Source: Burkholderia seminalis DSM 23518
Lineage (GTDB): Bacteria > Pseudomonadota > Gammaproteobacteria > Burkholderiales > Burkholderiaceae
Assembly: GCF_902832885.1 (NCBI RefSeq)
Contig: NZ_CADFDK010000016.1
Span: 1-64,000, forward strand
Reading direction: 5' to 3'
DNA: 64,000 bases
A model generated the notes under the pieces. The model saw only the letters and a program-made list of their open reading frames with translations, had not been told where the DNA came from and ran no database searches. The position numbers and the translations under genes were made by a program. Shown here in pieces: positions 5,669 to 24,826 of this stretch. Each line of letters opens with the position of its first letter. Position 1 is the stretch's first letter.

Positions 5669-6517
5669 ATGCTCGAACTCGTTTCCTCGCATGCGTGCCA
5701 CGGCGGCGAGCAGCGCTTCTACCGTCACGATTCGGCGGCCATCGGCCTGCCGATGAAGTTCTCGGTGTACCTGCCGCCGCAGGCGGCGCACGGCCGCGTG
5801 CCGGCGCTGTTCTACCTCGCGGGCCTCACGTGTACCGACGAGACGTTCGCGATCAAGGGCGGCGCGCAGCAGTACGCGGCGCAGCACGGCATCGCGCTCG
5901 TGATGCCCGATACGAGCCCGCGCGGCGCGGGCGTGCCGGGCGAGACCGATGCGTGGGATTTCGGCGTCGGCGCGGGCTTCTACGTCGATGCGACCGAGGC
6001 GCCGTGGTCCGCGCATTACCGGATGGAGTCGTACGTGACGGGCGAGCTGCGCGCGCTCGTCGCGGCCGAGCTGCCGATCGACGGCGCGCGGCTCGGGATC
6101 TTCGGCCACTCGATGGGCGGGCACGGCGCGCTGACGCTCGCATTGCGCCATCCGGGCCTGTACCGGTCGGTGTCGGCGTTCGCGCCGATCGCCGCGCCGA
6201 CGCGCTGCCCGTGGGGCGAAAAGGCGTTCTCGGGCTACCTCGGCGACGATCGCGACGCCTGGAAGGCGCACGATGCGAGCGAGCTCGTCGCGCGCGCCGA
6301 TGCGCCGAAGTTCGCGGAAGGCATCCTCGTCGACCAGGGGCTGGCCGATCAATTCCTCGCGAACCAGCTGAATCCCGACGTGTTCGAGGCCGCCTGCGCG
6401 AAGGCCGGCCAGCCGCTGACGCTGCGTCGTCATCCGGGCTACGACCACGGCTACTACTTCATCTCGACGTTCATCGCCGATCACATTGCGCATCATGCGC
6501 GTGTGCTGGTTGGGTGA
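5669..6517 (+). CDS. fghA: S-formylglutathione hydrolase
   Basis: 282 aa serine hydrolase of the esterase D family. It cleaves S-formylglutathione to formate and glutathione, completing formaldehyde detoxification begun by the dehydrogenase directly upstream. The nucleophile elbow is GHSMGGHGAL; the conserved N-terminal block KFSVYLPP...LFYLAGLTCTDETF and the late HPGYDHGYYF with the catalytic His match the family, as does length. The start at 5669 follows a GGGAG with suitable spacing. It is co-transcribed with the dehydrogenase (16-base gap) and ends at a strong bidirectional hairpin. Confidence 0.95.
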   Translation: MLELVSSHACHGGEQRFYRHDSAAIGLPMKFSVYLPPQAAHGRVPALFYLAGLTCTDETFAIKGGAQQYAAQHGIALVMPDTSPRGAGVPGETDAWDFGVGAGFYVDATEAPWSAHYRMESYVTGELRALVAAELPIDGARLGIFGHSMGGHGALTLALRHPGLYRSVSAFAPIAAPTRCPWGEKAFSGYLGDDRDAWKAHDASELVARADAPKFAEGILVDQGLADQFLANQLNPDVFEAACAKAGQPLTLRRHPGYDHGYYFISTFIADHIAHHARVLVG

Positions 6518-7413: not shown

Positions 7414-8290
7414 CGTGCGAATGCCCGGGATGGGCGTGTCCGTGGTGGTGATGGCCGTGGCCGCCGCCGTGCGAGTGGCCGTCGTCGTCCTCGTGTTCGT
7501 GGTCGTGCTTCTCGATCTCGACGTCGCCCGACATCACGAAGATCTTGCCGTTCACGCGCATCACGTCGATCGGCGACCCGTAGAGCCGCGACAGCACGGG
7601 CTTCGTGATCACCTCGTCGACGGTGCCGAGCGCCGCGACGCCGTTGCCGAGATACAGCACGCGATCGAGCGCGTTCAGCAGCGGATTCAGTTCGTGCGCG
7701 GAGAACAGCACGGTGATGCCGAGCTCGCGCTGCACGGTGCGCACGAGCTCGACGACGCCGCGCTGGTGGTTCGGGTCGAGGCTGATCAGCGGCTCGTCGA
7801 GCAGCAGCAGCTTCGGATTGCCGAGCAGGCATTGCGCGAGCAGCAGGCGCTGCCGTTCGCCGCCCGACAGCTCGGACAGCGGCCGGCGCGCGAGCGTCGG
7901 GCCGCCGACGAGATCGAGCACGCGGTCGACGTCGCGGCGCGTGGCCGCGTTCGTGTGCGGCAGCCCCCAGCGGTGGCCGTCGGCGGCCATCGCGACGAAG
8001 TCGTAGCCGCGCATCCGGCGGTTCGCGAGGCCGCTCCTGATCTGCGGCATGTAGCCGATCGACGGATTGCCGCGCACGACCGGCACGCCGCCGACGGACA
8101 GCGTGCCGGCCGACACGGGCACGAGCCCGAGCACCGCGCGCATCAGCGTCGTCTTGCCCGCGCCGTTCGGCCCGAGCACGCCGACGAATTCGCCGGGCTC
8201 GATCGAGAAGCTGACGTCGCGCAGGATCGTGCGTCCGCCCAGTTCGAGCGTGACGCGATCGACGGCGAGTGCATGGGGAGTGGCGGTCAT
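7406..8290 (-). CDS. znuC: Zinc ABC transporter ATP-binding protein ZnuC with His-rich tail
   Basis: 294 aa. Walker A GPNGAGKT at residues 40-47, ABC signature LSGGERQ near 150, Walker B LLLLDEP near 172, and the switch His in FSAHELNPLL. It energises zinc import with ZnuB. The last 33 or so residues form an extreme His/Asp/Gly run (GHGHHHHGHAHPGHSH and HDHEHEDDDGHSH), a probable cytoplasmic zinc-binding tail not present in E. coli ZnuC. The start is the ATG at 8290, 14 bases after znuA; no good Shine-Dalgarno is visible, so coupling to znuA is likely. The gene is in frame with, but distinct from, a long spurious reading frame through znuA. Confidence 0.93.
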   Translation of the reverse strand: MTATPHALAVDRVTLELGGRTILRDVSFSIEPGEFVGVLGPNGAGKTTLMRAVLGLVPVSAGTLSVGGVPVVRGNPSIGYMPQIRSGLANRRMRGYDFVAMAADGHRWGLPHTNAATRRDVDRVLDLVGGPTLARRPLSELSGGERQRLLLAQCLLGNPKLLLLDEPLISLDPNHQRGVVELVRTVQRELGITVLFSAHELNPLLNALDRVLYLGNGVAALGTVDEVITKPVLSRLYGSPIDVMRVNGKIFVMSGDVEIEKHDHEHEDDDGHSHGGGHGHHHHGHAHPGHSHDV

Positions 8291-9739: not shown

Positions 9740-10069
9740 GGCGTAAAGCAGGGCGATGAAACACAGTATCGCGATGATATAACGTATCGTCGCGCCGTGC
9801 AGCGTGAATTCCCCGTTTCCTGCCTCGCTCCGTCCCCTTCACCGTCGATCCCACTGCGCCGCACCGCGTGCGCGGCGCCTTGCCGGGCGTGCGCGACGGG
9901 CCGCCGTCGAGCGCGGTTGTGCCGCAGCGCGTCATAGAAAGCCGTCGCGTCGCCTTGACAGCATGAATCGCGTATCCGATCATTCGATCACAAACAGAGC
10001 AATTGATCGGTTTGCGAGCGTTCGCTCACCTCGCGACCGTCGTACAGCAGAACAAACCGGAGACAGCCA
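9740..10069. other. Divergent control region: zur operon and polyol ABC operon
   Basis: 330 bases, no gene seen. The zur-proximal part has an AT-rich segment (GATGATATAACGTATC at 9773-9788) suited to a -10/operator. The polyol-proximal part contains the promoter/operator module listed separately (9955-10009), followed by a small inverted repeat GAGCG-TT-CGCTC at 10016-10027. Confidence 0.6.
9955..10009 (+). promoter_or_regulatory. Promoter with 13-7-13 inverted-repeat operator, polyol ABC operon
   Basis: Consensus -35 TTGACA (9955-9960), 17-bp spacer, -10-like GATCAT (9978-9983). The -10 lies in the left half-site CGATCATTCGATC (9977-9989), a 7-bp spacer follows, then GAGCAATTGATCG (9997-10009), the inverted half-site. 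The same -35/17/GATCAT layout and half-site occur before the D-arabinitol dehydrogenase gene, which argues for a common regulator, probably the SorC-family protein of this locus. Overlap with the -10 suggests repression. Confidence 0.75.
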
Positions 10070-10846
10070 GTGAGACTGGAAGACAAGGTCGCGATCCTGA
10101 CGGGCGCCGCAAGCGGCATCGGCGAGGCGGTCGCGCAACGCTATCTGGACGAGGGCGCGCGCTGCGTGCTGGTCGATCTGAAGCCCGCCGGCGGCTCGCT
10201 CGCGCGGTTGATCGAGGCGAACCCCGGCCGCGCGGTGGCCGTCACCGCGGACGTCACGCGCCGCGACGACATCGAGCGGATCGTCGCCACGGCGGTCGAG
10301 CGCTTCGGCGGCGTCGACATCCTGTTCAACAATGCGGCGCTGTTCGACATGCGGCCGCTCCTCGACGAATCGTGGGACGTGTTCGACCGGTTGTTCTCGG
10401 TCAACGTGAAGGGGCTGTTCTTCCTGATGCAGGCCGTCGCGCAGCGAATGGTCGAGCAGGGCCGCGGCGGCAAGATCGTCAACATGTCGTCGCAGGCCGG
10501 CCGTCGCGGCGAGGCACTCGTTTCGCACTACTGCGCGACCAAGGCCGCGGTGATCAGCTATACGCAGTCGGCCGCGCTCGCGCTCGCGCCGCACCGGATC
10601 AACGTGAACGGGATTGCGCCGGGCGTGGTGGACACGCCGATGTGGGAGCAGGTCGATGCGCTGTTCGCGCGCTACGAGAACCGGCCGCTCGGCGAGAAGA
10701 AGCGGCTCGTCGGCGAAGCCGTGCCGCTCGGCCGCATGGGCGTGCCGGGCGACCTGACGGGCGCCGCGCTGTTCCTCGCGTCGGCCGACGCCGATTACGT
10801 CACCGCCCAGACGCTGAACGTCGACGGCGGCAACTGGATGAGCTGA
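10070..10846 (+). CDS. Polyol dehydrogenase, SDR family (sorbitol/galactitol 2-dehydrogenase, SmoS type)
   Basis: 258 aa classical short-chain dehydrogenase. NAD-binding TGAASGIG near the N-terminus, NNAALFD, the catalytic Ser in NMSSQAGRRGE, and YCATK with catalytic Tyr/Lys. The last residues NVDGGNWMS and the QAGRRGEALVSHYCATKAAVIS block are those of Rhodobacter sorbitol dehydrogenase SmoS and related galactitol 2-dehydrogenases, which oxidise sorbitol to fructose or galactitol to tagatose. It starts with GTG at 10070 after GGAG. It is the first gene of an operon with a PfkB kinase, a GatZ/KbaZ protein and a polyol ABC importer. The exact polyol is not proven by sequence. Confidence 0.88.
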   Translation: MRLEDKVAILTGAASGIGEAVAQRYLDEGARCVLVDLKPAGGSLARLIEANPGRAVAVTADVTRRDDIERIVATAVERFGGVDILFNNAALFDMRPLLDESWDVFDRLFSVNVKGLFFLMQAVAQRMVEQGRGGKIVNMSSQAGRRGEALVSHYCATKAAVISYTQSAALALAPHRINVNGIAPGVVDTPMWEQVDALFARYENRPLGEKKRLVGEAVPLGRMGVPGDLTGAALFLASADADYVTAQTLNVDGGNWMS

Positions 10847-10924
10847 CGTGATGTCGCTCGCACGCGCAACCTGCCGGCCGGCCCGCGACGACGCGGCCGC
10901 GGTCGGACGAGGAGGGCACGCCTG

Positions 10925-11881
10925 ATGGCCGAGATCGTCGTGGCCGGCGAACTGCTCGCCGAATTCGTCGCCGCCGAGCGCGGCCAGGGTTTCGATACGC
11001 CGGGCCTGTTCGCGGGGCCGTTCCCGAGCGGCGCGCCGGCGATCTTCGCCGACCAGGCCGCGCGGCTCGGCGCGCGCGTCGCGTATGCGGGCTGCGTCGG
11101 CCGCGACGCGTTCGGCGACGCGATCGTCGCGCGGCTCGAACGCGACGGCGTCGAGGTTGCGCGCATCCGCCGCGTCGCGCGCCCGACCGGCACCGCGTTC
11201 GTCGCGTACCGCGACGACGGCTCGCGCAGCTTCGTCTTCACGCTGTCCACCAGCGCGGCCGCGTGCGTCGATGCGTCCGACGTCGATGCCGCGATGTTCG
11301 ACGGCTGCCGTTACTTCCACGTGATGGGCTCGTCGCTGACGAGCGAATCGGCGATCGCGGCCGTGCAGCGCGGCGTGATCGAGGCCGCGCGCGCCGGCGC
11401 GAAGGTGTCGTTCGATCCGAACGTGCGCCCCGAGATGCTGAGCTTTCGCCCGATGCGCGCGGCGCTCGACGAGATGCTCGCCGCGTGCCACCTGTTCCTG
11501 CCGAGCGAGGCCGACCTGCCGTTCTTCTGCGGGCCGCAACCGGCCGAGCGCGCGATCGCGGGCCTGCTCGCGACGCACCCGTTGCTCGAGCGCGTCGTGC
11601 TGAGGCGCGGCGCGCAAGGCAGCGTCGCGTTCGATCGCGCGAACCGCGTCGACGCGCCGGCCTTTCCGGTCGACGAAGTCGACCCGACCGGTGCCGGTGA
11701 CTGCTTCGGCGGCACGCTCGTCGCGAGCCTCGTCGCGGGCGTGCCGATCGATGCCGCGTTGCGCCGCGCGAACGCGGCCGGCGCGATCGCGGTGACGCGG
11801 CGCGGCCCGATGGAGGGCAACAGCGATGCGGCCGAGATCGACCGTTTCCTGACCGAACGAGGTATCGCATGTCCGGCCTGA
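10925..11881 (+). CDS. PfkB-family sugar kinase, probable tagatose kinase
   Basis: 318 aa ribokinase-superfamily kinase. The C-terminal PfkB signature DPTGAGDCFGGTLVASL carries the catalytic Asp and anion hole, and the N-terminal GELLAEF with substrate-binding SGAPAIFA follows the family pattern. Its place between a polyol 2-dehydrogenase and a GatZ/KbaZ-family gene matches the galactitol pathway described for Agrobacterium, where a tagatose kinase makes tagatose 6-phosphate. Fructokinase or another ketose kinase activity is the alternative. A GGAGG lies about ten bases before the ATG. The stop overlaps the next gene by 13 bases, implying coupled translation. Confidence 0.8.
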   Translation: MAEIVVAGELLAEFVAAERGQGFDTPGLFAGPFPSGAPAIFADQAARLGARVAYAGCVGRDAFGDAIVARLERDGVEVARIRRVARPTGTAFVAYRDDGSRSFVFTLSTSAAACVDASDVDAAMFDGCRYFHVMGSSLTSESAIAAVQRGVIEAARAGAKVSFDPNVRPEMLSFRPMRAALDEMLAACHLFLPSEADLPFFCGPQPAERAIAGLLATHPLLERVVLRRGAQGSVAFDRANRVDAPAFPVDEVDPTGAGDCFGGTLVASLVAGVPIDAALRRANAAGAIAVTRRGPMEGNSDAAEIDRFLTERGIACPA

Positions 11882-13230
11882 CGACCCTTGCCGACCGTCC
11901 GCGCACCGCGCACGCGGACGCGGTGCTGCGGATGATCTTCGACGCGAACCGCGCCGACGCGCAGCGCGGCATCTATTCGATCTGCAGCGCGCACCGGCTC
12001 GTGCTGGAGGCCGCGTGCGAAGCCGCGCGCGCGGACGGCTCGCCGCTCCTGATCGAGGCGACCTGCAACCAGGTGAACCATCTCGGCGGCTATACGGGCA
12101 TGACGCCCGCCGATTTTCGCCGCGACGTCGATGCGATCGCCGCGCGTTGCGGGCTCGCGCCGTCGGCGCTCGTGCTCGGCGGCGACCATCTCGGCCCGAA
12201 CCCGTGGCGGCACCGCCGCGCGGCCGACGCGATGCGCGAGGCGGTCGCGATGGTCGCCGCGTATGTCGAAGCCGGCTTCGAGAAGATCCACCTCGACGCG
12301 AGCATGGCGTGCGCGGACGATCCGGTGCGGCTCGACGATCGCACGATCGCCGCGCGCGCGGCCGAGCTGTGCCGCGCGGCGGAAGACGCGGCGGCGCGTG
12401 CCGGTCTCGCGCCCGTCTACGTGATCGGCACCGAGGTGCCGACGCCGGGCGGCGAAGTGAGCGGCGGCGCGAACGAAGCGGACGATGCGGCGATCGCGCG
12501 GATCTCGGTCACGCGCAGCGACAGCGTCGCGGCGACGCTCGACGCGCACCGCCGCGCGTTCGCGGCGGCCGGCCTCGACGACGCATGGACACGCGTGGTC
12601 GCGGTCGTCGCGCAGCCGGGCGTCGACTTCGACGATCGCCACGTGCTCGACTACGACAGCGCGAAGGCGGCGTCGCTCGGCGCGAGTATCCTGCAGACAC
12701 CGCGCCTCGTGTTCGAGGCGCACTCGACCGATTACCAGACCGAAGGCGCGCTCGCCGCGCTCGTGCGCGACCACTTCGCGGTGCTGAAGGTCGGCCCGGC
12801 GCTGACGTTCGCGCTGCGCGAGGCGCTGTTCGCGCTGACGTTCATCGAGGAGGCGCTGATCGACGACGTCGCGCAGCGCTCGCGGCTGCGGGAGGTCGTC
12901 GACGCCGCGATGCGCGCGCAGCCCGAGCACTGGGCGCCGTACTACCGCGGCGACGAGGCCGAGCAGCGGCTCGCGCGCCAGTTCAGCTACAGCGACCGGA
13001 TCCGCTACTACTGGCTGCAGCCGGCCGTCGCGGCCGCGGTCGAGCAGCTGTTCGGCAACCTCGCGCGGCAGCCGGTGCCGGAGACGCTCGTCGCGCAGTG
13101 GCTGCCGGACGTCTACGCGGCGTGCCGCGCGGGCGGCCTCGCGCAGGAGCCGCGCGCCTGGGTGCGCCACCGGATACGCGACGTGATCGCGCACTATGCG
13201 CGCGCGTGCGGGATGCAGCGGCCGGCATGA
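11869..13230 (+). CDS. GatZ/KbaZ-family protein: tagatose-6-phosphate 4-epimerase or tagatose-bisphosphate aldolase subunit
   Basis: 453 aa, full length for the GatZ/KbaZ family (TIM-barrel). Recognisable blocks include EATCNQVNHLGGYTGMTP, LGGDHLGPNPW, HLDASMACADD and VIGTEVPTPGG. In enterobacteria such proteins are non-catalytic partners of GatY/KbaY aldolases. No GatY/KbaY-like class II aldolase gene is in this window. In Agrobacterium a stand-alone member next to a tagatose kinase acts as D-tagatose 6-phosphate 4-epimerase (giving fructose 6-phosphate), which fits this context better. That assignment is inference from neighbourhood. The ATG at 11869 overlaps the kinase stop. Confidence 0.82.
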   Translation: MSGLTTLADRPRTAHADAVLRMIFDANRADAQRGIYSICSAHRLVLEAACEAARADGSPLLIEATCNQVNHLGGYTGMTPADFRRDVDAIAARCGLAPSALVLGGDHLGPNPWRHRRAADAMREAVAMVAAYVEAGFEKIHLDASMACADDPVRLDDRTIAARAAELCRAAEDAAARAGLAPVYVIGTEVPTPGGEVSGGANEADDAAIARISVTRSDSVAATLDAHRRAFAAAGLDDAWTRVVAVVAQPGVDFDDRHVLDYDSAKAASLGASILQTPRLVFEAHSTDYQTEGALAALVRDHFAVLKVGPALTFALREALFALTFIEEALIDDVAQRSRLREVVDAAMRAQPEHWAPYYRGDEAEQRLARQFSYSDRIRYYWLQPAVAAAVEQLFGNLARQPVPETLVAQWLPDVYAACRAGGLAQEPRAWVRHRIRDVIAHYARACGMQRPA

Positions 13231-13298
13231 CGGGCCGCGAAGGAAACGACGCAACACGCAACACCGACGACACTTCGAACAAACACAGGAGACATGCC

Positions 13299-14624
13299 AT
13301 GCAACGAAAGATGCTCGACGCCGCCGCACGCTGCCTTGCCGGAGCCGCGCTCGCGACGGCGGCCTGCGCCGCGTCCGCCGGCACGCTGACGATCGCGACG
13401 CTGAACAACCCCGACATGATCGAGCTGAAGAAGCTGTCGCCGGCGTTCGAGAAGGCGAACCCCGACATCAAGCTGAACTGGGTGATCCTCGAGGAGAACG
13501 TGCTGCGCCAGCGCGCGACGACCGACATCACGACCGGCAGCGGCCAGTTCGACGTGATGGCGATCGGCACCTACGAGACGCCGCAGTGGGGCAAGCGCGG
13601 CTGGCTCGCGCCGATCACCGGGCTGCCCGCGGACTACGACCTGAACGACATCGTGAAGACCGCGCGCGACAGCCTGTCGTACAACGGCCAGCTCTACGCG
13701 CTGCCGTTCTATGTCGAAAGCTCGATGACGTTCTACCGCAAGGACCTGTTCGCGGCGAAGGGGCTGAAGATGCCCGACCAGCCGACCTACGACCAGATCG
13801 CCGAATTCGCGGACAAGCTCACCGACAAGGCGAAGGGCACCTACGGGATCTGCCTGCGCGGCAAGGCCGGCTGGGGCGAGAACATGGCGTACGTGTCGAC
13901 GGTGGTGAACACGTTCGGCGGGCGCTGGTTCGACGAGAACTGGAACGCGCAGCTCACGTCGCCCGAATGGAAGAAGGCGATCTCGTTCTACGTGAACCTG
14001 CTGAAGAAGGACGGCCCGCCGGGAGCGAGCTCGAACGGCTTCAACGAGAACCTGACGCTGACCGCCTCGGGCAAGTGCGCGATGTGGATCGACGCGACGG
14101 TCGCGGCCGGCATGCTCTACAACAAGCAGCAGTCGCAGGTGGCCGACAAGATCGGTTTCGCGGCCGCGCCGGTGGCCGCCACGCCGAAGGGTTCGCACTG
14201 GCTGTGGGCATGGGCGCTGGCCGTGCCGAAGACGTCGAAGCAGCAGGACGCCGCGCGCAAGTTCATCGCGTGGGCGACGTCGAAGCAGTACATCGAGATG
14301 GTCGGCAAGGACGAAGGCTGGGCATCGGTGCCGCCGGGCACGCGCGCGTCGACGTACCAGCGCCCCGAGTACAAGGCCGCCGCGCCGTTCTCCGACTTCG
14401 TGCTGAAGGCGATCGAGACGGCCGACCCGAACGATCCGTCGCTGAAGAAGGTGCCGTACACGGGCGTGCAGTACGTCGGGATTCCTGAATTCCAGTCGTT
14501 CGGCACGGTGGTCGGCCAGTCGATCGCGGGCGCGGTCGCGGGCCAGATGACGGTCGACCAGGCGCTCGCCGCCGGGCAGGCCGCCGCCGACCGCGCGGTG
14601 CGGCAGGCCGGCTACAAGAAGTAA
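13299..14624 (+). CDS. Polyol ABC transporter substrate-binding protein (SmoE-like)
   Basis: 441 aa extracellular solute-binding protein family 1. A signal peptide with basic start MQRKM and hydrophobic core ends near ACAASAG (about residue 28). The mature start GTLTIATLNNPDM and later motifs (FDVMAIGTYETPQWG, SHWLWAWALAVP) resemble sorbitol/mannitol-binding proteins of alphaproteobacteria and pseudomonads. It captures polyols in the periplasm for the two permeases downstream. The ATG at 13299 is preceded by AGGAGA; a much longer in-frame reading frame upstream is a shadow of the GatZ/KbaZ gene. Confidence 0.9.
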   Translation: MQRKMLDAAARCLAGAALATAACAASAGTLTIATLNNPDMIELKKLSPAFEKANPDIKLNWVILEENVLRQRATTDITTGSGQFDVMAIGTYETPQWGKRGWLAPITGLPADYDLNDIVKTARDSLSYNGQLYALPFYVESSMTFYRKDLFAAKGLKMPDQPTYDQIAEFADKLTDKAKGTYGICLRGKAGWGENMAYVSTVVNTFGGRWFDENWNAQLTSPEWKKAISFYVNLLKKDGPPGASSNGFNENLTLTASGKCAMWIDATVAAGMLYNKQQSQVADKIGFAAAPVAATPKGSHWLWAWALAVPKTSKQQDAARKFIAWATSKQYIEMVGKDEGWASVPPGTRASTYQRPEYKAAAPFSDFVLKAIETADPNDPSLKKVPYTGVQYVGIPEFQSFGTVVGQSIAGAVAGQMTVDQALAAGQAAADRAVRQAGYKK

Positions 14625-14736
14625 CGCGCCGGCAGTCACGCGGCCCGCGGCGTGCGCCGTTGCACACCGCGGGCCGGCGAAGCCGAAAGGCGGGCAGGCC
14701 GTTCGCGCCCGCGCATCAACCGGAGGGACTCCGATC

Positions 14737-15690
14737 ATGCGTCACCTGCGTCTTCCCCTGAGTCACGCCCACGCGCCGTCGGTCGGCGACGCGTCGTCGC
14801 CGCCGGGCGCGCCGCGCCGCGCGCGCGGCGGCGCGAGCTGGCTCGTGTCGCCGTCCGTCGCGGTGCTGCTGCTGTGGATGTCGATTCCGCTCGCGATGAC
14901 GATCTGGTATTCGTTCTCGCGCTACAACCTGCTGAATCCGGACGTGAAAGGTTTCGCCGGGTTCGACAACTACCGCTTCCTCGCGACCGATCCGTCGTTC
15001 CTGCCCGCGATCTGGCACACGCTCGTGCTGATCGGCGCGGTGCTCGCGATCACGGTGGTCGGCGGCGTGCTGATGGCCGTGCTGTTCGACCGCAAGTTCT
15101 ACGGGCAGGGCGTCGCGCGGCTGCTCGCGATCGCGCCGTTCTTCGTGATGCCGACGGTCTCCGCGCTGATCTGGAAGAACATGATCCTGCACCCGGTGTA
15201 CGGGCTCGTCGCGAACGCGATGCGCGCGCTCGGGATGACGCCGATCGACTGGTTCGCCGACTACCCGCTCACCGCGGTGATCATCATCGTCGCGTGGCAG
15301 TGGCTGCCGTTCGCGTTCCTGATCCTGTTCACCGCGATCCAGTCGCTCGACCAGGAGCAGAAGGAAGCCGCGCGCATCGACGGCGCGGGCCCGATCGCGA
15401 TGTTCTTCTACATCACGCTGCCGCACCTGAAGCGTGCGATCGCCGTGGTCGTGATGATGGAGACGATCTTCCTGCTGTCGATCTTCGCGGAAATCTATAC
15501 GACGACGGGCGGCGGCCCGGGCGACGCGACGACCAACCTGTCCTACCTGATCTACGCGCTGGGCCTGCAGCAGTTCGACGTCGGCCTCGCGTCCGCGGGC
15601 GGCATCATCGCCGTGGTGGTCGCGAACGTCGTGTCGTTCTTCCTCGTGCGGATGCTCGCGCGCAACCTGAAGGGAGAGTACGAGAAATGA
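14737..15690 (+). CDS. Polyol ABC transporter permease 1 (SmoF-like)
   Basis: 317 aa binding-protein-dependent inner-membrane permease of the MalF/CUT1 type, with six predicted helices after a cytoplasmic N-terminal tail of about 30 residues rich in Pro/Arg. The EAA loop reads EAARIDGAGPIAMFFYITLPHL, the contact site for the ATPase. The ATG at 14737 follows GGAGGG. Its stop overlaps the start of permease 2 (ATGA), so the two membrane subunits are made together. It forms the heterodimeric channel with the next gene product for sorbitol/mannitol/arabinitol-type substrates (inferred from context). Confidence 0.92.
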   Translation: MRHLRLPLSHAHAPSVGDASSPPGAPRRARGGASWLVSPSVAVLLLWMSIPLAMTIWYSFSRYNLLNPDVKGFAGFDNYRFLATDPSFLPAIWHTLVLIGAVLAITVVGGVLMAVLFDRKFYGQGVARLLAIAPFFVMPTVSALIWKNMILHPVYGLVANAMRALGMTPIDWFADYPLTAVIIIVAWQWLPFAFLILFTAIQSLDQEQKEAARIDGAGPIAMFFYITLPHLKRAIAVVVMMETIFLLSIFAEIYTTTGGGPGDATTNLSYLIYALGLQQFDVGLASAGGIIAVVVANVVSFFLVRMLARNLKGEYEK

Positions 15691-16538
15691 GCGACCTGAC
15701 CTTCGAAGGCCGGCGCGGGCCGGCCGTGTTCGACCTCGTGCGGCGCGCGTTGCCCGGCACGCTCGCGTGGCTGATCGCGCTGCTGCTGTTCTTCCCGATC
15801 TTCTGGATGGCGATCACCGCGTTCAAGACCGAGCAGCAGGCCTACGCGTCGACGCTGTTCTTCATGCCGACGCTCGACAGCTTCCGCGAGGTGTTCGCGC
15901 GCAGCAACTACTTCGCGTTCGCGTGGAATTCGGTGCTGATCTCGGCCGGCGTCACGGTGATCTCGCTGCTGTTCGCGGTGCCGGCCGCCTACGCGATGGC
16001 GTTCTTTCCGAACCATCGCACGCAGAAGGTGCTGCTGTGGATGCTGTCGACGAAGATGATGCCGTCGGTCGGCGTGCTCGTGCCGATCTATCTGCTGTGG
16101 AAGAACGCGGGGCTGCTCGATACGGTATCGGGGCTCGTGATCGTCTACACGCTGATCAACCTGCCGATCGCGGTGTGGATGACCTTCACGTACTTCAACG
16201 AAATCCCGAAGGACATCCTGGAGGCCGGGCGCATCGACGGCGCGTCGACGTGGCAGGAGATCGTCTACCTGCTGATGCCGATGGCGCTGCCGGGGCTCGC
16301 GTCCACCGCGCTGCTGCTCGTGATCCTGTCGTGGAACGAGGCGTTCTGGAGCATCAACCTGTCGAGTTCGAACGCCGCGCCGCTGACGGTGTTCATCGCG
16401 TCGTACTCGAGCCCCGAAGGGTTGTTCTGGGCGAAGCTGTCCGCCGCTTCCCTGCTCGCGGTCGCGCCGATCCTGATCGTCGGCTGGCTGTCGCAGAAGC
16501 AGCTCGTGCGCGGGCTCACGTTCGGGGCGGTCAAATGA
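15687..16538 (+). CDS. Polyol ABC transporter permease 2 (SmoG-like)
   Basis: 283 aa permease of the MalG type with six hydrophobic helices. The EAA motif reads EAGRIDGASTWQEIVYLLMPMALP. It begins inside the stop codon of permease 1 (ATGA) with GGGAGAG upstream, and its own stop overlaps the following HAD phosphatase gene in the same ATGA way, so three genes are translationally chained. It completes the membrane channel of the polyol importer. Confidence 0.92.
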   Translation: MSDLTFEGRRGPAVFDLVRRALPGTLAWLIALLLFFPIFWMAITAFKTEQQAYASTLFFMPTLDSFREVFARSNYFAFAWNSVLISAGVTVISLLFAVPAAYAMAFFPNHRTQKVLLWMLSTKMMPSVGVLVPIYLLWKNAGLLDTVSGLVIVYTLINLPIAVWMTFTYFNEIPKDILEAGRIDGASTWQEIVYLLMPMALPGLASTALLLVILSWNEAFWSINLSSSNAAPLTVFIASYSSPEGLFWAKLSAASLLAVAPILIVGWLSQKQLVRGLTFGAVK

Positions 16539-17248
16539 GCGCGGCCGGCGAAGGGGCTGCCGGCCACGCCGCGAACGTCCTGATCTGCGATTGCGACGGC
16601 GTGCTGATCGACAGCGAGGCCGTGGCCGCCGACGTGATCGTGCGCGAACTCGATGCGCGCTGGCCGGGCGTCGACGCGCGGCCGGCCGTGATGCCGCTGC
16701 TCGGGCTGCGCATCGAGCGCGTGCTGGCCGGTGCCGGCGAGGCCGTCGGCCGCACGCTGTCGGCCGCCGACGTCGACGCGATCCGCCGCGCGGTCGAGGC
16801 GGCGGCCGTCAATGCGCCGATGGTCGACGGCATCGACACCGCGCTGGCCGCGATCCCGTTGACGACGGCCTGCGCGAGCAACAGCTACCGCGCATACGTC
16901 GAGGCGGCGCTCGCGCGCACGGGCCTCGCGCGCTTCTTCGGCGACCGGCTGTTCTGCGCGGATGCCGTCGCGCGGCCCAAGCCCGCGCCCGACGTGTACC
17001 TCGCGGCCGCGCACTCGCTCGGCGCGGCGCCCGCGCACTGCCTCGTGGTCGAGGACAGCGTGACGGGCATCACCGCGGCGGCCGCGGCCGGCATGACCGT
17101 GCTCGGCTTCGTCGGCGGCGGGCACGCGTCGGCGGCCCAGATCGACGCGCTGCGCGGGATCGGCGCGCGTCACGTATTCGACGACATGCACGAGTTGCCC
17201 GGCTACGTCGCGCGCTGGCAGGCGACGGGCGCGGTGCTGCCGAACTAG
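16535..17248 (+). CDS. HAD-family phosphatase of the polyol operon
   Basis: 237 aa haloacid dehalogenase-like hydrolase, subfamily IA (beta-phosphoglucomutase-like). Nucleophile motif CDCDGVLIDSE (Asp19/Asp21), motif II ACASNS, motif III Lys in ARPKPAPDVY and the acidic motif IV VVEDSVTG are all present, so it should be catalytically competent. Alpha-helical cap residues lie between about 30 and 95. It is embedded between the permeases and the ATPase gene. Similar phosphatases in polyol operons probably remove phosphate from off-pathway or excess sugar phosphates; the substrate is unknown. The start overlaps the previous stop (ATGA). Confidence 0.85.
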   Translation: MSAAGEGAAGHAANVLICDCDGVLIDSEAVAADVIVRELDARWPGVDARPAVMPLLGLRIERVLAGAGEAVGRTLSAADVDAIRRAVEAAAVNAPMVDGIDTALAAIPLTTACASNSYRAYVEAALARTGLARFFGDRLFCADAVARPKPAPDVYLAAAHSLGAAPAHCLVVEDSVTGITAAAAAGMTVLGFVGGGHASAAQIDALRGIGARHVFDDMHELPGYVARWQATGAVLPN

Positions 17249-17303
17249 CAACGATTGCGCGCCGCCGGCGAGGCGGCGCATCACGAACGAACGGAGACAG
17301 ATC

Positions 17304-18413
<1,110 letters not shown>

Positions 18414-18432
18414 CGACCGGCGACCGCGCCGC

Positions 18433-19317
18433 TCAGATGCGCAGGTGGTCGGCCAGGTAGTCGACGAACGCGCGCAGCTTCGGCGTCGGGTGCCGGCCCG
18501 ACGGCCACAGCACATGGAACGGCGTGCGGCTCGCGACGTGCTCGTCGAGCACCGTGCGCAGCGTGCCGTCGGCCAGCGCGTCGTGCACGAAGAACTCCGG
18601 CAGGCACGCGATGCCGCGCCCGCGCAGCACGAAGCACAGGCGCGCTTCCGCGCTGTTGCTGACCATCGTGACCGGCACCTCGGGCGGCGGGCCGTGACGC
18701 GGCACGCGCAGCGGCCAGGTCTGGAGCCGGCCGCTGCTCGGGAAGCGGTAGTGCAGGCAGCGGTGACGCGCGAGATCGGCCGGCGTGCGTGGCGTGCCGT
18801 GCCGGTCGAGATAGGCGGGCGACGCGACGAGGTGCTGGCGGAAATGGCCGAGCAGCCGCGACGACAGCCGCGAGTCCGACGGCTGGCCGGTGCGCAGCAC
18901 CGCGTCGAATCCTTCGTCGACGACGTCGACGAGCCGGTCGCTGAAATCGATGTCGAGCTCGATCTCCGGATACGCGGCCATGAAATCGGCGAGCACCGGC
19001 AGCAGCAGCGTGCCGATCGTCGGCAGGCTCACGCGCAGCCGCCCGCGCGGCGCTTCGGCACTGTGCGTCAGTTCCTGTTCGGCCGCGTCGAGCTCGGCGA
19101 TCACGCGCCGGCACCGTTCGAGAAAACGCGCGCCTTCGGCCGTCAGCGTGATGCTGCGCGTGCTGCGGTGAAAGAGCCGCACGTTCAGGCGCGCCTCGAG
19201 CCGCGCGATGCGCTTGCCGATCGCCGATGCCGACAGCCCGAGCGCGCGGCCGGCCGCGACGAAGCTGCGCGTTTCCGCGACCTGAACGAACACGACGAAG
19301 CCGCCCAGATTTTCCAT
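18433..19317 (-). CDS. LysR-family transcriptional regulator
   Basis: 294 aa. An N-terminal winged helix-turn-helix (about 1-60) contains FVVFVQVAETRSFVAAGRALG and SASAIGKRIARLEARL, followed by a periplasmic-binding-protein-like effector domain. Sequence is closest in style to the CrgA-type group that regulates divergently placed exporters. It is divergent from an MFS transporter gene, and the 163-base gap holds a perfect 16-bp palindrome, so it probably controls that transporter and itself. The start MENLGGF is the first Met before the HTH. It converges on the polyol operon but is not obviously part of it. Confidence 0.88.
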   Translation of the reverse strand: MENLGGFVVFVQVAETRSFVAAGRALGLSASAIGKRIARLEARLNVRLFHRSTRSITLTAEGARFLERCRRVIAELDAAEQELTHSAEAPRGRLRVSLPTIGTLLLPVLADFMAAYPEIELDIDFSDRLVDVVDEGFDAVLRTGQPSDSRLSSRLLGHFRQHLVASPAYLDRHGTPRTPADLARHRCLHYRFPSSGRLQTWPLRVPRHGPPPEVPVTMVSNSAEARLCFVLRGRGIACLPEFFVHDALADGTLRTVLDEHVASRTPFHVLWPSGRHPTPKLRAFVDYLADHLRI

Positions 19318-19332
19318 GCCGGTTCCCGATTG

Positions 19333-19364
19333 CGGACATCGATGTCCGGATTGTCCGGAACTCT
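19333..19364. promoter_or_regulatory. Palindromic LysR operator candidate
   Basis: A perfect 16-bp palindrome CGGACATCGATGTCCG at 19333-19348 is followed by a second dyad TCCGGATTGTCCGGA (19345-19359). It lies 15 bases upstream of the LysR start and within the promoter region of the divergent MFS gene. LysR proteins bind such paired dyads; the assignment is by position. Confidence 0.6.
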
Positions 19365-19430
19365 ACCCCGGTTTTTCTTCCCGCGCCGGCTCCCTACGAT
19401 GGGCGTTCCTTCACCGTTCGAGGTCACGCC

Positions 19431-19484
19431 ATGTCATTCCTGCCTGTCACAGCCCGTCGCGTCGAAACCGGGGGCGCGTCATGA
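19431..19484 (+). CDS. Possible 17-residue leader peptide of the MFS transporter
   Basis: An ATG preceded by GAGG at good spacing opens an 17-codon frame (MSFLPVTARRVETGGAS) whose TGA overlaps the MFS start codon as ATGA. The MFS start itself has only a weak Shine-Dalgarno, so translation could be coupled through this short frame. Coding status is uncertain. Confidence 0.3.
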   Translation: MSFLPVTARRVETGGAS

Positions 19485-20692
19485 GCGATTGCCCGTCGAT
19501 GGACAGCCGCGTTGCCGGCCGCCCGGTGCAGGCGGCCGAGCGCCTGCCGGTCGCGAACCTGCTGGCGCTCGCCACCGCCGCCTTCATCACGATCCTCACC
19601 GAAGCGCTGCCGGCCGGCCTGCTGCCGTTGATGAGCGCCGACCTGCGCGTGCCCGAGGCGCTGATCGGCCAGCTCGTGACCGTGTATGCGCTCGGCTCGA
19701 TCGTCGCGGCGATCCCGCTTGTCGCCGCGACGCGCGCGATGCGCCGGCGCCGCCTGCTGCTCGCGGCGCTCGCCGGCTTCGTCGTGTCGAACGCGCTGAC
19801 GGCCGTGTCGCCGTACTACGCGCTCACGCTCGTGGCGCGCTTCGTCGCCGGCATGGCGGCGGGGCTGCTGTGGGCGCTGCTGGCCGGCTACGCGAGCCGG
19901 ATGGTCGATGCGTCGCTGCGCGGCCGTGCGATCGCGGTGGCGATGCTCGGCGCGCCGGTCGCGATGTCGGTCGGCATTCCGGCCGGTACCGCGCTGGGCG
20001 CGGCGCTCGGCTGGCGCGTCGCGTTCGCGCTGATCACGCTGGCGGCGCTCGCGTTGATCGGCTGGATCCGCCTGCGCGTGCCCGATTACGCGGGGCAGCC
20101 CGCCGGCGCGCGCGAGCCCGTGCTTGGCGTGATGATGCTGCCCGGCGTGCGGCCGGTGCTGACCGTGATGTTCGCGTACGTGCTCGCGCACAACATGCTG
20201 TACACGTATGTCGCGCCGTTCCTGGCAGGGGTGCGGATGGGCACGCAGGTCGATGTGGTGCTGTTCGTGTTCGGCCTCGCGTCGCTGGCGGGCATCGCGC
20301 TGACGGGCGCATGGATCGGCGCCGCGCAACGACGGCTGACGCTCGCCAGCATCGCGCTGTTCGCGCTCGCGGCGCTGATGCTCGGCGCCGGGTCCGGGAT
20401 GGCGATCGTCTATGCGGGCGTCGCGCTGTGGGGGCTCGCGTTCGGCGGCGCGCCGACGCTGTTCCAGACGGCCGCCGCGAACGCGGCGGGGGAATCGGCC
20501 GACGTCGCGCAGTCGATGCTCGTGACGGTGTGGAACCTCGCGATCGCCGGCGGCGGCATCGCGGGCGGGATGCTGCTCGGCGCGACGGGCGCCGGCGCGA
20601 TTCCGTGGGCGCTCGTCGCGCTGCTGGCGGCCGCGTGGATCGGCGCGTGGCGCGCGCGCCGGCACGCGTTCCCGGCGCCGCGCGCGGCCTGA
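19481..20692 (+). CDS. MFS transporter (drug/sugar efflux, DHA1-like)
   Basis: 403 aa, twelve hydrophobic helices. The first helix region ATAAFITILTEALPAGLLPLMSADL and GSIVAAIPLVAATRAMRRRR (loop 2-3 motif A variant) are typical of DHA1/AraJ/SotB-like exporters, which include arabinose and sugar efflux proteins and drug exporters. It is divergent from a LysR regulator that likely controls it. Substrate unknown; adjacency to polyol genes hints at sugar efflux but is not proof. ATG at 19481 was chosen since it follows the short leader frame with an ATGA overlap; an alternative Met lies at 19499. Confidence 0.85.
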   Translation: MSDCPSMDSRVAGRPVQAAERLPVANLLALATAAFITILTEALPAGLLPLMSADLRVPEALIGQLVTVYALGSIVAAIPLVAATRAMRRRRLLLAALAGFVVSNALTAVSPYYALTLVARFVAGMAAGLLWALLAGYASRMVDASLRGRAIAVAMLGAPVAMSVGIPAGTALGAALGWRVAFALITLAALALIGWIRLRVPDYAGQPAGAREPVLGVMMLPGVRPVLTVMFAYVLAHNMLYTYVAPFLAGVRMGTQVDVVLFVFGLASLAGIALTGAWIGAAQRRLTLASIALFALAALMLGAGSGMAIVYAGVALWGLAFGGAPTLFQTAAANAAGESADVAQSMLVTVWNLAIAGGGIAGGMLLGATGAGAIPWALVALLAAAWIGAWRARRHAFPAPRAA

Positions 20693-20711
20693 GCGGGCGG
20701 CACCGGCGGCG

Positions 20712-21668
20712 TCAGGCTGCCTTCGCGGCGAGCGCGGCGCGCGCGCAGGTTTCGTCGGTGACGAGCCCCGACAGCCAGCCGCCGCGCAGCGCGGCGATCA
20801 CCGCGTCATGTTTCTTCGGGCCGCCGGCGAACGCGATCGTCGGCAGCTTCGGCGGCGTCGCGAGCGCGACGCTCGTCACGCGCGCGCTGGTCGACACCGT
20901 GATCTGCGTACCCTGCGCGTCGATCGGCACGCCGAGCAGCTCGGCCACCGCGCCGAGCGCGGTCATCTCGTCGCGTTCCTGTTCGGTGATGAAGCCGTCT
21001 TCGTAGAGCGGGCAGTGCGGCCCGATGTTGCCGATCCCGACGAACGCGACGTCGGCCTGGCCCGACAGCGCCTCGACGATCCGGTACAGCCGGTGATTGC
21101 ACCACTGCGCGCGCTCGGCGTCGCTGTCGGCGAACAGCGGCGCGGGCAGCAGGAAATGCTTGCTGCCGGTTTTCTCGGAGATGTACTGCGCGACGTCGTA
21201 GCGGTTCGACGAACCGTCGGCCGCGATCGCGCCCACCATCGACACGAGCCGGTGCTGCGGGCGGTCGATCTGCGCGATCTGCGCGACCGCCGCCTTCAGC
21301 GTGCGGCCGCTGCTGACCGCGATCACCATCGGCCGCGTTTCGTTCAGGTAGCGCTCCATTACCTGCGCGCCGGCGACCGCGAGCTTGCGGTCGATCGCGT
21401 CGGGCGCATCGGCATCGACGGGCACGACTTCGCACATCGCGAGGCCGTAGCGTTTCGACAGCTGCGCGCCGAGATCGAGGCAGTCGGCGAGCCGGTGATC
21501 GACGCGCACGCGGATCAGGTTCTTCTCGACCGCGAACGCGACGAGGCGCTGCGCGACCGGGCGCGAGACCTGCAGCTTCTCGGCGATTTCGTTCTGCGTG
21601 TCGCCCGCGACGTAGTAGAGCCACGCGGCACGGGTGGCGAGATCGAGTTTTTCTGAGGACTTGGACAC
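20712..21668 (-). CDS. SorC/DeoR-family sugar-responsive transcriptional regulator
   Basis: 318 aa. N-terminal HTH (about 10-60) with AAWLYYVAGDTQNEIAEKLQVSRPVAQRLV, then a sugar-phosphate isomerase-like effector domain including VMVGAIA-type turns and GIGNIGPHCPLYEDG. SorC proteins bind phosphorylated sugars and control polyol and sugar operons. The start is taken as GTG at 21668 because the HTH begins a few residues later; the frame is open far upstream without another convincing start, and no clear Shine-Dalgarno is visible. It is downstream of xylulokinase and D-arabinitol dehydrogenase genes on the same strand, so it may be co-transcribed. It is the best candidate for the shared operators at 9977-10009 and 24772-24804. 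Confidence 0.88.
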   Translation of the reverse strand: MSKSSEKLDLATRAAWLYYVAGDTQNEIAEKLQVSRPVAQRLVAFAVEKNLIRVRVDHRLADCLDLGAQLSKRYGLAMCEVVPVDADAPDAIDRKLAVAGAQVMERYLNETRPMVIAVSSGRTLKAAVAQIAQIDRPQHRLVSMVGAIAADGSSNRYDVAQYISEKTGSKHFLLPAPLFADSDAERAQWCNHRLYRIVEALSGQADVAFVGIGNIGPHCPLYEDGFITEQERDEMTALGAVAELLGVPIDAQGTQITVSTSARVTSVALATPPKLPTIAFAGGPKKHDAVIAALRGGWLSGLVTDETCARAALAAKAA

Positions 21669-21772
21669 GATAGCGATTCGGTTTGGATCAGGGGGCCGCC
21701 CCGCGGGCCGGCCGACAGGCCGCACGACGGCGTCCACTGTAACGCATGTCGTGCGCTGCCCCGCGGTCGCGC

Positions 21773-23254
<1,482 letters not shown>

Positions 23255-23337
23255 GAGCGATCCGTTCCGTCAGTGGGGAGTCGCTACTTTAGCCGCGCGG
23301 CAGCGCACGTGCCAAGGCAGGTTCGCCCGGATGCGCG

Positions 23338-24732
23338 TCAGCGCTGCGCCAGCCATGCGTCGACCCGCGCGAGCGCGCCGCGCAGCGCCTCGAACAGCGC
23401 CGCGTTGCCGGCGAGCGAGCCCCACAGCGCGCGGCTCGCGCCCAGCGCGACGACCGGGTCGTCGGCTTCGGCGATCGCCCGCGCGGCGTCGTCGTCCATC
23501 ACGCCGTCCTGGTACGCATACGGCAGCAGGCCGCGCGCCCAGCGTTCGAGAAAGCGCAGGAACAACGCGGGCAGCACCGCGGTGGCCACCGGCGCCGCGC
23601 CGCGTGCGAACGATTCGACGAGCGTCGGCGCGATGAAGCCGGGGATCTTCGAGAAGCCGTCGGCCGCGACGCGCTGGTTGGTGTCGAGCACGTACGGGTT
23701 GCCGAAGCGTTCGAGCACGACGTCGCGGTAGCGCGCGAGATCGAGCGGGCTCGGGCTCAGGCACGGGATCACGTCCTGCGTCACGTAGTCGTGCGCGAAG
23801 CGGCGGATCGCCGCGTCGTGCGTGCCTTCGTGAATGTAGGTGTAGCCCGCGAGCGTGCCGGCCCACGCGATGCAGCTGTGCGTCGCGTTGAGGATGCGGA
23901 TCTTCGCTTCCTCGTACGGGTGCACATCGTCGACGAGTTCGGCGCCGGCCAGTTCCCAGCGCGGCCGGCCGGCCGCGAAGCGGTCCTCGATCACCCACTG
24001 GATGAACGATTCGCCCATCACCGGGCATGCATCGTCGATGCCGGTGGCCGCGCGCACGCGTTCGCGCACGTCGGCGGTCGGGCGCGGCGTGATGCGGTCG
24101 ACCATCGCGCTCGGCGTCGCGACGTGCGCGTCGAACCACGCGAGAAGGGCCGTTTCGCCCCGCCGTTCGAGAAATTCGCGCATCCCCGCGCGAAAGCGCG
24201 CGCCGTTGTTGCGCAGGTTGTCGCAGCTCTGCAGCGTGAGCGGGCCCGCGCCGCGCTTCACGCGTTCGGCGAGCAGCGCCGCGAGCGCGCCGTACAGCGT
24301 CGTGCGCGCGCCCTGCAGGTCGGCCGCCAGATCGGCGTTCGCGATGTCGAGCCGGTTGTGTTCGTCGAGGTAGTAGCCGCCTTCGGTGACGGTGAACGAC
24401 ACGATCCGGCAGGCCGGATCGGCGCCGGCATCGACCAGCGCGGCGAGGTCGATCGACCACGGCAGCACGCGCGTGATCGCGCGGATCGTCTCGTACGCGC
24501 GCTCGCCTTGCGGCGTGACGGTTTCGAGCGTGTAGGCGCCGTGCTGTGCGGCGAGCGCGTCCATCGTCGCGCGCATGTCGTCGCGGATGTTGCCGACGGT
24601 CAGCGACCAGCGTTCGTCGGCCGGGACGGCCGCGTTCACGCGATGCAGATACCACGCCTGGTGCGCGCGGTGAAACGAGCCAGCGCCGATGTGCAGCAGC
24701 ACGGGCGCGCGGGCGGAGGGCGATTCGCTCAT
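23338..24732 (-). CDS. dalD: D-arabinitol 4-dehydrogenase (mannitol dehydrogenase family)
   Basis: 464 aa long-chain polyol dehydrogenase. N-terminal Rossmann block HIGAGSFHRAHQAWY, family motif SFTVTEGGYYLDEHNRLD, and C-terminal substrate domain with EEAKIRILNATHSCIAWAG and the catalytic Lys/Asn region. Length and context (xylulokinase next, SorC regulator after) favour D-arabinitol to D-xylulose oxidation as in Klebsiella DalD; D-mannitol 2-dehydrogenase (making fructose) is the alternative within the same family. AGGAGA precedes the ATG. A promoter with a large inverted repeat is directly upstream. Confidence 0.85.
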   Translation of the reverse strand: MSESPSARAPVLLHIGAGSFHRAHQAWYLHRVNAAVPADERWSLTVGNIRDDMRATMDALAAQHGAYTLETVTPQGERAYETIRAITRVLPWSIDLAALVDAGADPACRIVSFTVTEGGYYLDEHNRLDIANADLAADLQGARTTLYGALAALLAERVKRGAGPLTLQSCDNLRNNGARFRAGMREFLERRGETALLAWFDAHVATPSAMVDRITPRPTADVRERVRAATGIDDACPVMGESFIQWVIEDRFAAGRPRWELAGAELVDDVHPYEEAKIRILNATHSCIAWAGTLAGYTYIHEGTHDAAIRRFAHDYVTQDVIPCLSPSPLDLARYRDVVLERFGNPYVLDTNQRVAADGFSKIPGFIAPTLVESFARGAAPVATAVLPALFLRFLERWARGLLPYAYQDGVMDDDAARAIAEADDPVVALGASRALWGSLAGNAALFEALRGALARVDAWLAQR

Positions 24733-24765
24733 CCGTTGTCTCCTGTTCGTGCCAGTCTTCTCAGT

Positions 24766-24826
24766 CGAATACGATCATTTGCTCTTTATGTGAGCGAATG
24801 ATCGTATTCGGGCGAGCGAAAGTCAA
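24766..24826 (-). promoter_or_regulatory. Promoter with large inverted-repeat operator before dalD
   Basis: On the minus strand: -35 TTGACT (24826-24821), 17-bp spacer, -10-like GATCAT (24803-24798). The inverted repeat has arms CGAATACGATCATTTGCTC (24766-24784) and GAGCGAATGATCGTATTCG (24792-24810), 18 of 19 positions paired around TTTATGT. The inner 13-bp half-sites match those before the polyol ABC operon with the same 7-bp spacer. It covers the -10 and start point, as expected for a repressor site. Confidence 0.8.

Follow-up and report, generated by a model that had tools for sequence, protein, structure and literature searches.

SorC-family regulators bind two half-operators as a dimer of dimers, with phosphosugars as effectors (PMC11229326). 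Among the described systems, SmoC of Sinorhizobium meliloti represses the smo polyol locus, and its deletion makes the operon constitutive (PMC10433430). Here we describe a 64,000-nucleotide stretch of Burkholderia seminalis DSM 23518 (contig NZ_CADFDK010000016.1, positions 1 to 64,000; hereafter the window), in which two polyol operons on opposite strands start from promoters carrying the same tandem site, and the second operon (operon B, led by dalD) ends with a gene for a SorC-family protein (20712-21668). Both sites are very probably operators of this protein, a SmoC-like repressor of the SorC/DeoR subfamily that is predicted to bind them and to occlude both promoters. A SorC/DeoR-subfamily repressor with a tandem operator is of a kind already known. 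Among the literature matches listed, no paper dealt with this operator or regulon in Burkholderia (RegPrecise-type databases lay outside the search), and the main text of PMC5343134 makes no mention of SorC.

The regulator and its described relatives

The smo locus, like the window, combines a DeoR-type repressor with an adjacent ATP-binding cassette (ABC) polyol transporter, a sorbitol/galactitol short-chain dehydrogenase/reductase (SDR) and a mannitol/D-arabitol dehydrogenase (PMC10433430). This SmoC-type context is found here in the adjacent ABC polyol transporter, the SDR and a mannitol/arabitol-type dehydrogenase, with similar gene sets in relatives. Whereas smo is one locus, the window has two opposite-strand operons, with sorC closing the dalD-xylB operon, and additional PfkB and GatZ genes. 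The likeness to SmoC is drawn from gene context and description, and the words operator and palindrome are not found in the main text of PMC10433430.

The window protein carries the SorC C-terminal sugar-binding domain PF04198 (8.6e-52, 176 bits, cut-off 27), and its residues 3-56 match the DeoR DNA-binding domain (chain 7bhy, 5e-8), a DeoR-type short helix-turn-helix (HTH) by sequence. Over its full length it matches LsrR (1.3e-29, the best-scoring relative of solved structure) and DeoR (2.4e-25). R36 and R41, which correspond by alignment to the base-contacting R34 and R39 of DeoR (residue numbers from PMC11229326), are present in 36 of 36 aligned proteins, the window protein and LsrR among them. 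The protein stays below the cut-offs of the DeoR equivalog NF053881 (116.6 vs 420 bits) and the LsrR equivalog NF011947 (130.7 vs 486 bits), and is assigned by these matches to the SorC/DeoR subfamily of the SorC family, being neither LsrR nor DeoR by NCBIfam cut-offs.

DeoR of Bacillus subtilis acts at the dra-nupC-pdp operator, which like the window sites consists of two half-operators (PMC11229326), both fitting GANCANNTGNTC with 2 mismatches. Their centres lie 22 bp apart, compared with 19 in the window, and the operator extends from -60 to -21 (PMC11229326), whereas the window operators cover the -10 hexamer. LsrR of Escherichia coli has two 31-bp frames of the window type at its own target, with the inner quarter-sites poorly kept (5 of 8 mismatched); this target belongs to quorum sensing, unlike the polyol operons of the window. 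CggR of B. subtilis has tandem palindromic half-operators ∼20 bp apart (counted on the printed operator), which are bound by a tetramer (PMC11229326), but it belongs to the winged-helix subfamily (with a winged HTH of ∼100 residues) and its half-site sequence differs.

Two promoters with the same putative operator

The module consists of TTGAC[A/T], 17 bp and GATCAT, the last overlapping a site with two 13-bp arms separated by 7 bp (13-7-13), and is present at 9955-10009 (+) and 24766-24826 (-). Both copies had been noticed in an initial annotation of the window, and its coordinates, -35 hexamers, 17-bp spacers, GATCAT hexamers and 7-bp gaps all hold when rechecked on the sequence. The half-sites, said there to match their consensus at 12-13 of 13 positions, score 12, 12, 13 and 13 of 13 against CGATCATTYGCTC, and the 19-bp arms with one mismatch reported before dalD are found at 24766-24784 and 24792-24810; the operon-A arms differ from one another at 3 of 13 positions. 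Since CGATCATTYGCTC was derived from these same sites, the independent evidence is that from relatives.

TTGAC[A/T]-N17-GATCAT occurs at two places only within the window (both strands searched), and lone half-sites with up to 3 mismatches are not above chance there (67 found, 59 expected from shuffles). In the 7.97-Mb genome the full pair pattern, at up to 3 mismatches, is found at 2 places, against 0 for the reversed pattern. A 39-position sequence profile trained on 45 sites of other genomes, some of them from near-identical close relatives, recovered the two window sites in the 8-Mb genome (E-values in Table 1), with a best E-value elsewhere of 0.175 among the 150 candidates scored out of 1744 from the first look; the remaining weak matches below 1 fell on these two sites again, on the opposite strand or shifted. 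The visible regulon at the profile threshold, within the candidates scored, is these two promoters. A chance origin of the twin sites is ruled out by their paired geometry, genome-wide rarity and conservation.

In relatives, sites were sought within ∼400 bp of dalD or the SDR gene, in a count that includes the window and loci that overlap (102 and 63 distinct segments, respectively). Of 122 sequences with a dalD match, 114 have a site upstream of this gene, and 64 of 68 have one upstream of the SDR gene; the missed loci have dalD inside a longer operon, belong to g21, or are cut or mis-anchored at the SDR gene. Alignment of 62 distinct operon-A and 97 distinct dalD promoters, each with up to 2 mismatches to a relaxed 31-mer, places TTGAC at a fixed distance from the -10 hexamer in 62/62 and 96/97, respectively. 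The initial annotation took the position of the -10 hexamer inside the operator to imply repression, and the retention of GATCAT within the operator (61/62 and 96/97) is as expected for repression.

Each 13-mer contains a dyad GANCA-N2-TGNTC, which all aligned promoters have at offsets 0 and 19 (up to 2 mismatches) and none has at five control offsets, an agreement that is partly built in by the selection of promoters; free of this effect are only the -35 hexamer, a third dyad and the loci outside the family. The self-complementarity of successive 12-mers peaks in operon A at offsets 0, 19 and 38 (3.85, 4.94 and 4.55 of 6, the mean over offsets being 1.6), and in dalD promoters at offset 19 (4.58), where dyad 1 is only weakly symmetric (below 3.0), possibly owing to the double role of its outer arm, which also serves as the -10 hexamer. 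In Paraburkholderia, the second dyad can be a perfect palindrome, GAGCAATTGCTC. By this anatomy the putative operator is two dyads with centres 19 bp apart, in agreement with the SorC-family trait of an operator built of two palindromic half-operators.

Allowing up to 2 mismatches, the third dyad (10016-10027), which played no part in the selection criteria, is found in 52 of the 62 operon-A promoters and in 0 of the 97 dalD promoters, and the two departures of its window copy, GAGCGTTCGCTC, pair with each other. A conserved dyad upstream of the dalD operator, at offset -19, was found in 0 of 97 promoters. Each 13-mer is best interpreted as the site of one dimer, made up of two quarter-sites, which gives the dalD operator four quarter-sites and the operon-A operator six. 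To the earlier description of two inverted 13-bp half-sites per operator we add two amendments: each 13-mer forms a pseudo-palindrome of its own, as a half-operator composed of two quarter-sites, and a third dyad, conserved at operon A, had gone unnoticed. As a separate feature of the dalD promoters, CTTGACTTTC (24803-24826, -) is kept directly at and 3' of the -35 hexamer.

Co-occurrence of the sites with the regulator gene

The initial annotation suggested asking whether the sites track the SorC gene in relatives, and they do so in both the genus and the family. In the genus, a strict site is present in 63 of 65 genomes and SorC in 62, all 62 SorC genomes having a strict site. Two near-complete genomes (G016 and G040) have neither SorC nor a site and have also lost dalD and gatZ, pointing to loss of the whole cluster, while G057 (82% complete) has one site and gatZ, with SorC and dalD not detected. 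Seven other genomes of the genus have one site: four lack gatZ, as expected, and three (G024, G030 and G048) keep gatZ with one strict site.

In the family, strict sites are present in 166 of 398 genomes (in 6 of 25 genera), of which 165 have SorC at E<=1e-150 and the remaining one (G381) has a SorC fragment with 88% identity over residues 2-85. Conversely, 16 genomes have SorC at E<=1e-150 and no strict site. Twelve of these were fetched (those outside the examined set being G302, G322, G346 and G370), and in each of the 12 the expected promoter has a relaxed tandem site: at both operons in nine, before one fused operon in two (g16), and before dalD in one (g17), the other end of which is off the contig. 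The absence of sites from relatives that keep both operons, named at the outset as the observation to look for against the proposal, was thus not encountered in the 12 of 16 apparent exceptions examined; the exceptions G024, G030 and G048, with gatZ and one strict site, stand apart from this. At least one site within 6 mismatches is present in 79 of 80 named loci, the other (L033) being a short contig. Locus L047, from Paraburkholderia xenovorans LB400, carries both sites. The SorC protein has its closest relatives (97-99%) within Burkholderia, including B. cenocepacia, B. anthina, B. arboris and B. lata.

Operon layouts and origin of the twin arrangement

Seven g24 genomes gave a SorC match. 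In the four g24 loci fetched, sorC faces a single operon encoding the substrate-binding protein (SBP), permease, HAD protein, ATPase, DalD and XylB, and in 4/4 one operator lies in the gap between sorC and this divergent polyol operon. The two g16 loci have one operon, running from the SDR gene to sorC, with a single operator. Among ten loci with other layouts or diverged sites, TTGAC[A/T] precedes the -10 hexamer by 17 bp in seven (g24, g16 and g17) and by 18 bp in three (g15), and the g24 -10 hexamer is GATTAT or AATTAT. We take g24, g20 and g10 to be Ralstonia-like, Paraburkholderia-like and Caballeronia-like, respectively, these labels being guesses.

Because some other genera have one fused polyol operon with one operator, the twin layout probably arose in the Burkholderia-Paraburkholderia lineage by splitting of a single ancestral smo-like operon with one operator, both parts keeping the module. 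We infer the direction of the split by parsimony. The locus would then be a likely case of operon splitting in which both halves stay under one repressor. In one g24 gap (L187:10432-10640), a second, weaker dyad pair overlaps the -35 hexamer, giving four dyads in all.

Proposed mechanism and alternatives

Repression with autoregulation is the most likely mode of action, given an operator placed over the -10 hexamer, the repression of an equivalent gene set by SmoC (PMC10433430) and the binding of half-operators by SorC-family proteins (PMC11229326). In the proposed mechanism, one dimer would sit on each half-operator GANCA-N2-TGNTC and a tetramer would bridge both, covering the -10 hexamer and the transcription start, such that without inducer SorC would block RNA polymerase at both promoters. 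As sorC ends the dalD operon, with which it is presumably co-transcribed, the protein would also repress its own gene. A phosphorylated product of polyol breakdown (e.g. D-xylulose 5-phosphate or a hexulose phosphate) may loosen the tetramer, and its release would turn on uptake (ABC transporter), oxidation (SDR and DalD) and phosphorylation (XylB and PfkB) together. The initial annotation had pointed to one regulator, most simply this SorC protein, and the choice is supported by the co-occurrence of gene and sites, by the g24 sites between sorC and the divergent operon, and by the distribution of the LysR gene considered below.

Operator conservation alone does not name the protein, and binding of SorC at the sites is a prediction, so the sites could instead be those of some unlinked regulator whose presence simply accompanies the polyol cluster. 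We regard this as unlikely: in several gene arrangements, the operon containing or facing sorC retains the site at its promoter; LsrR, which scores best among the relatives of solved structure, has the same frame at its own target; and the window protein is the single match to the SorC query in its own genome at E<=0.001.

SorC could also act as an activator, or as both activator and repressor, and the three dyads at operon A would allow such a more complex arrangement. Activators rarely sit over a -10 hexamer, and the operator covers it in 157 of the 159 distinct promoters. EryD, which is similar to SmoC, is cited as acting both ways, whereas SmoC itself, in the equivalent context, represses (PMC10433430). 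A role other than plain repression is likewise unlikely.

The other regulator encoded in the interval between the operons, a LysR-type protein (18433-19317), is a highly improbable owner of the sites. Only 20 of 80 loci have its gene (at >=55% identity), as do 5 of the 60 loci extending to the SDR gene, whereas the site occurs in 79 of 80; nine g10 and g20 loci with both sites have no LysR match within the fetched stretch. LysR was rejected on this distribution, as it does not track the sites. Just as improbable is an inverted repeat acting in RNA, as a hairpin or terminator: the 19-bp arms before dalD would form a strong hairpin, but the arm with the -10 hexamer lies upstream of the expected start, so that both arms would not be transcribed from that promoter, the second dyad is kept with different spacers, a terminator scan gives nothing at either site, and the RNA reading was rejected by position.

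Several observations weigh against SorC as the common repressor. SorC has disappeared only where the operons have too; linkage by itself could then account for the co-occurrence, which cannot prove binding. GATCAT fits TATAAT at 4 of 6 positions, and the dyads at offsets 0 and 19 carry the selection effect described above. In three g15 loci, the site before the SBP gene is degenerate and 18 rather than 17 bp from the -35 hexamer, and in the two g21 genomes examined (SorC identity 38-39%) no site was found. Placed beside the conservation and layouts set out above, repression by SorC remains our preferred account. For a SorC-family polyol regulator of Burkholderia and its relatives, it offers an operator, a geometry and a two-operon regulon that can be tested.

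A frame shared outside the family

Loci outside the family were represented by 20 loci of SorC proteins with 40-56% identity, taken in an even draw over the phylum and picked by hand, ahead of the scan, to be widely spread. One is from the same order, nine are from the same class and ten from other classes (L215/L217 and L219/L220 are same-genus pairs and not independent). Two (L218 and L221) lack an SBP match, and the gap scored there precedes a dalD relative of 32-34% identity. The frame was defined by GANCA and TGNTC at its opposite ends, with up to 1 outer and up to 4 total mismatches of 16, at lengths of 26-40 bp. In the 300 bp before the SBP gene or a leading dalD, which make up 2% of the sequence, frames occur only at lengths of 31 (12 of 17), 32 (4 of 5) and 35 bp (2 of 3). 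Thus 16 of the 22 frames of 31 or 32 bp fall within that 2%, or 15 after dropping one inside sorC (L225), and the reversed control gave no frame at lengths 31, 32 or 35 in the 20 loci. A first frame scan of these loci had found other lengths above the reversed control as well (e.g. 23, 39 and 44); among lengths of 26-40 bp, only 31, 32 and 35 fell in regulatory gaps.

A 31/32-bp frame precedes the polyol operon in 14 of the 20 loci (1/1 of the same order, 6/9 of the same class and 7/10 of other classes). In L219 and L220, an extra frame lies before the HAD-sorC operon, a second case of twin operators; in L219, from another class, the twin 31-bp frames are at 6241-6271 before HAD-sorC and at 8036-8066 before the SBP operon. 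The lsrR-lsrA gap of E. coli K-12 contains two exact GAACA-N21-TGTTC frames of 31 bp, and two frames of this length appeared in 0 of 3000 resampled gaps; the match came only on retesting with outer quarter-sites and frame length, an adjustment made after a first negative. The DeoR operator (sequence from PMC11229326) fits the 12-mer dyad code twice, with 2 mismatches each and 22 bp apart (0.00025 in shuffles).

We lean towards reading the twin sites as one case of an old operator code of the SorC/DeoR subfamily, in which two GANCA-N2-TGNTC dyads stand in a fixed frame of 31-32 bp and precede polyol operons of the smo type in two or more classes of Proteobacteria. LsrR would use this code too, as would DeoR of Firmicutes with 3 bp added; the ancestral operon would have split in the Burkholderia lineage, both halves keeping modules and one growing a third dyad in phase. 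Further points weigh against the SorC account: six of the 20 loci have no 31/32-bp frame (L211, L218, L221, L223, L225 and L222, the last with a 35-bp frame only), the lsrR-lsrA gap also has one frame each of 42 and 44 bp, the first test of that gap, with whole 12-mers at 17-24 bp spacing, gave no significant pair, and a different, TTTT-based LsrR motif has been published (PMC13393413). What is most novel in the analysis is that the frame is apparently shared beyond the family. If this frame holds across SmoC-like and LsrR proteins, operators would become predictable for many uncharacterised SorC/DeoR-subfamily regulators.

Features of the window

Operon A (+) encodes the SDR, PfkB and AgaZ/GatZ proteins, the ABC transporter and a HAD phosphatase, and operon B (-) consists of dalD, xylB and sorC (Table 1).

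Table 1. Coordinates of the promoter-operator modules and genes of the two polyol operons in the window
Feature	Position	Strand	Remarks
-35 TTGACA, operon A promoter	9955..9960	+	TTGACA in 62/62 distinct operon-A promoters
-10-like GATCAT, within dyad 1 of operator A	9978..9983	+	kept in 61/62 promoters
Putative operator A, 13-7-13 site, 33 bp	9977..10009	no strand	profile E 6.5e-11
Dyad 1 of operator A, GANCA-N2-TGNTC	9978..9989	no strand	
Dyad 2 of operator A, 19 bp on from dyad 1	9997..10008	no strand	
Dyad 3 of operator A, another 19 bp on, GAGCGTTCGCTC	10016..10027	no strand	
SDR polyol dehydrogenase (L-iditol 2-dehydrogenase model), GTG start	10070..10846	+	NF005472, 479.8 bits, cut-off 338
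PfkB kinase, tagatose-kinase-like	10925..11881	+	below tagatose kinase model cut-off
AgaZ/GatZ tagatose-bisphosphate aldolase subunit	11869..13230	+	TIGR02810 above cut-off
ABC substrate-binding protein	13299..14624	+	open frame; weak family matches only
ABC permease	14737..15690	+	PF00528
ABC permease, start at MSDL methionine	15687..16538	+	permease family matches below cut-offs
HAD sugar-phosphatase-like protein	16535..17248	+	
MalK/UgpC-type ABC ATPase	17304..18413	+	
SorC-family regulator, SorC/DeoR subfamily, GTG start, last gene of dalD operon	20712..21668	-	PF04198
xylB, xylulokinase	21773..23254	-	TIGR01312, 559 bits, cut-off 380
dalD, D-arabinitol 4-dehydrogenase	23338..24732	-	NF043014, 744.5 bits, cut-off 600
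Dyad 2 of putative operator B	24773..24784	no strand	
Dyad 1 of putative operator B, promoter-proximal	24792..24803	no strand	
Putative operator B, 13-7-13 site	24772..24804	no strand	profile E 2.4e-10
-10-like GATCAT of dalD promoter, within first dyad	24798..24803	-	kept in 96/97
-35 TTGACT, dalD promoter	24821..24826	-	TTGAC in 96/97 distinct dalD promoters

Between the operons (18433-20692) lie the LysR gene and a divergent major facilitator superfamily (MFS) transporter gene, which are present in 20 of 80 relatives' loci. PfkB and GatZ genes occur in 9 of the 60 loci reaching the SDR gene, a count biased by the flank limit. Both (10925-13230 in the window) are missing from the Paraburkholderia loci looked at (e.g. 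L040 and L047), in which the SDR gene adjoins the ABC genes.

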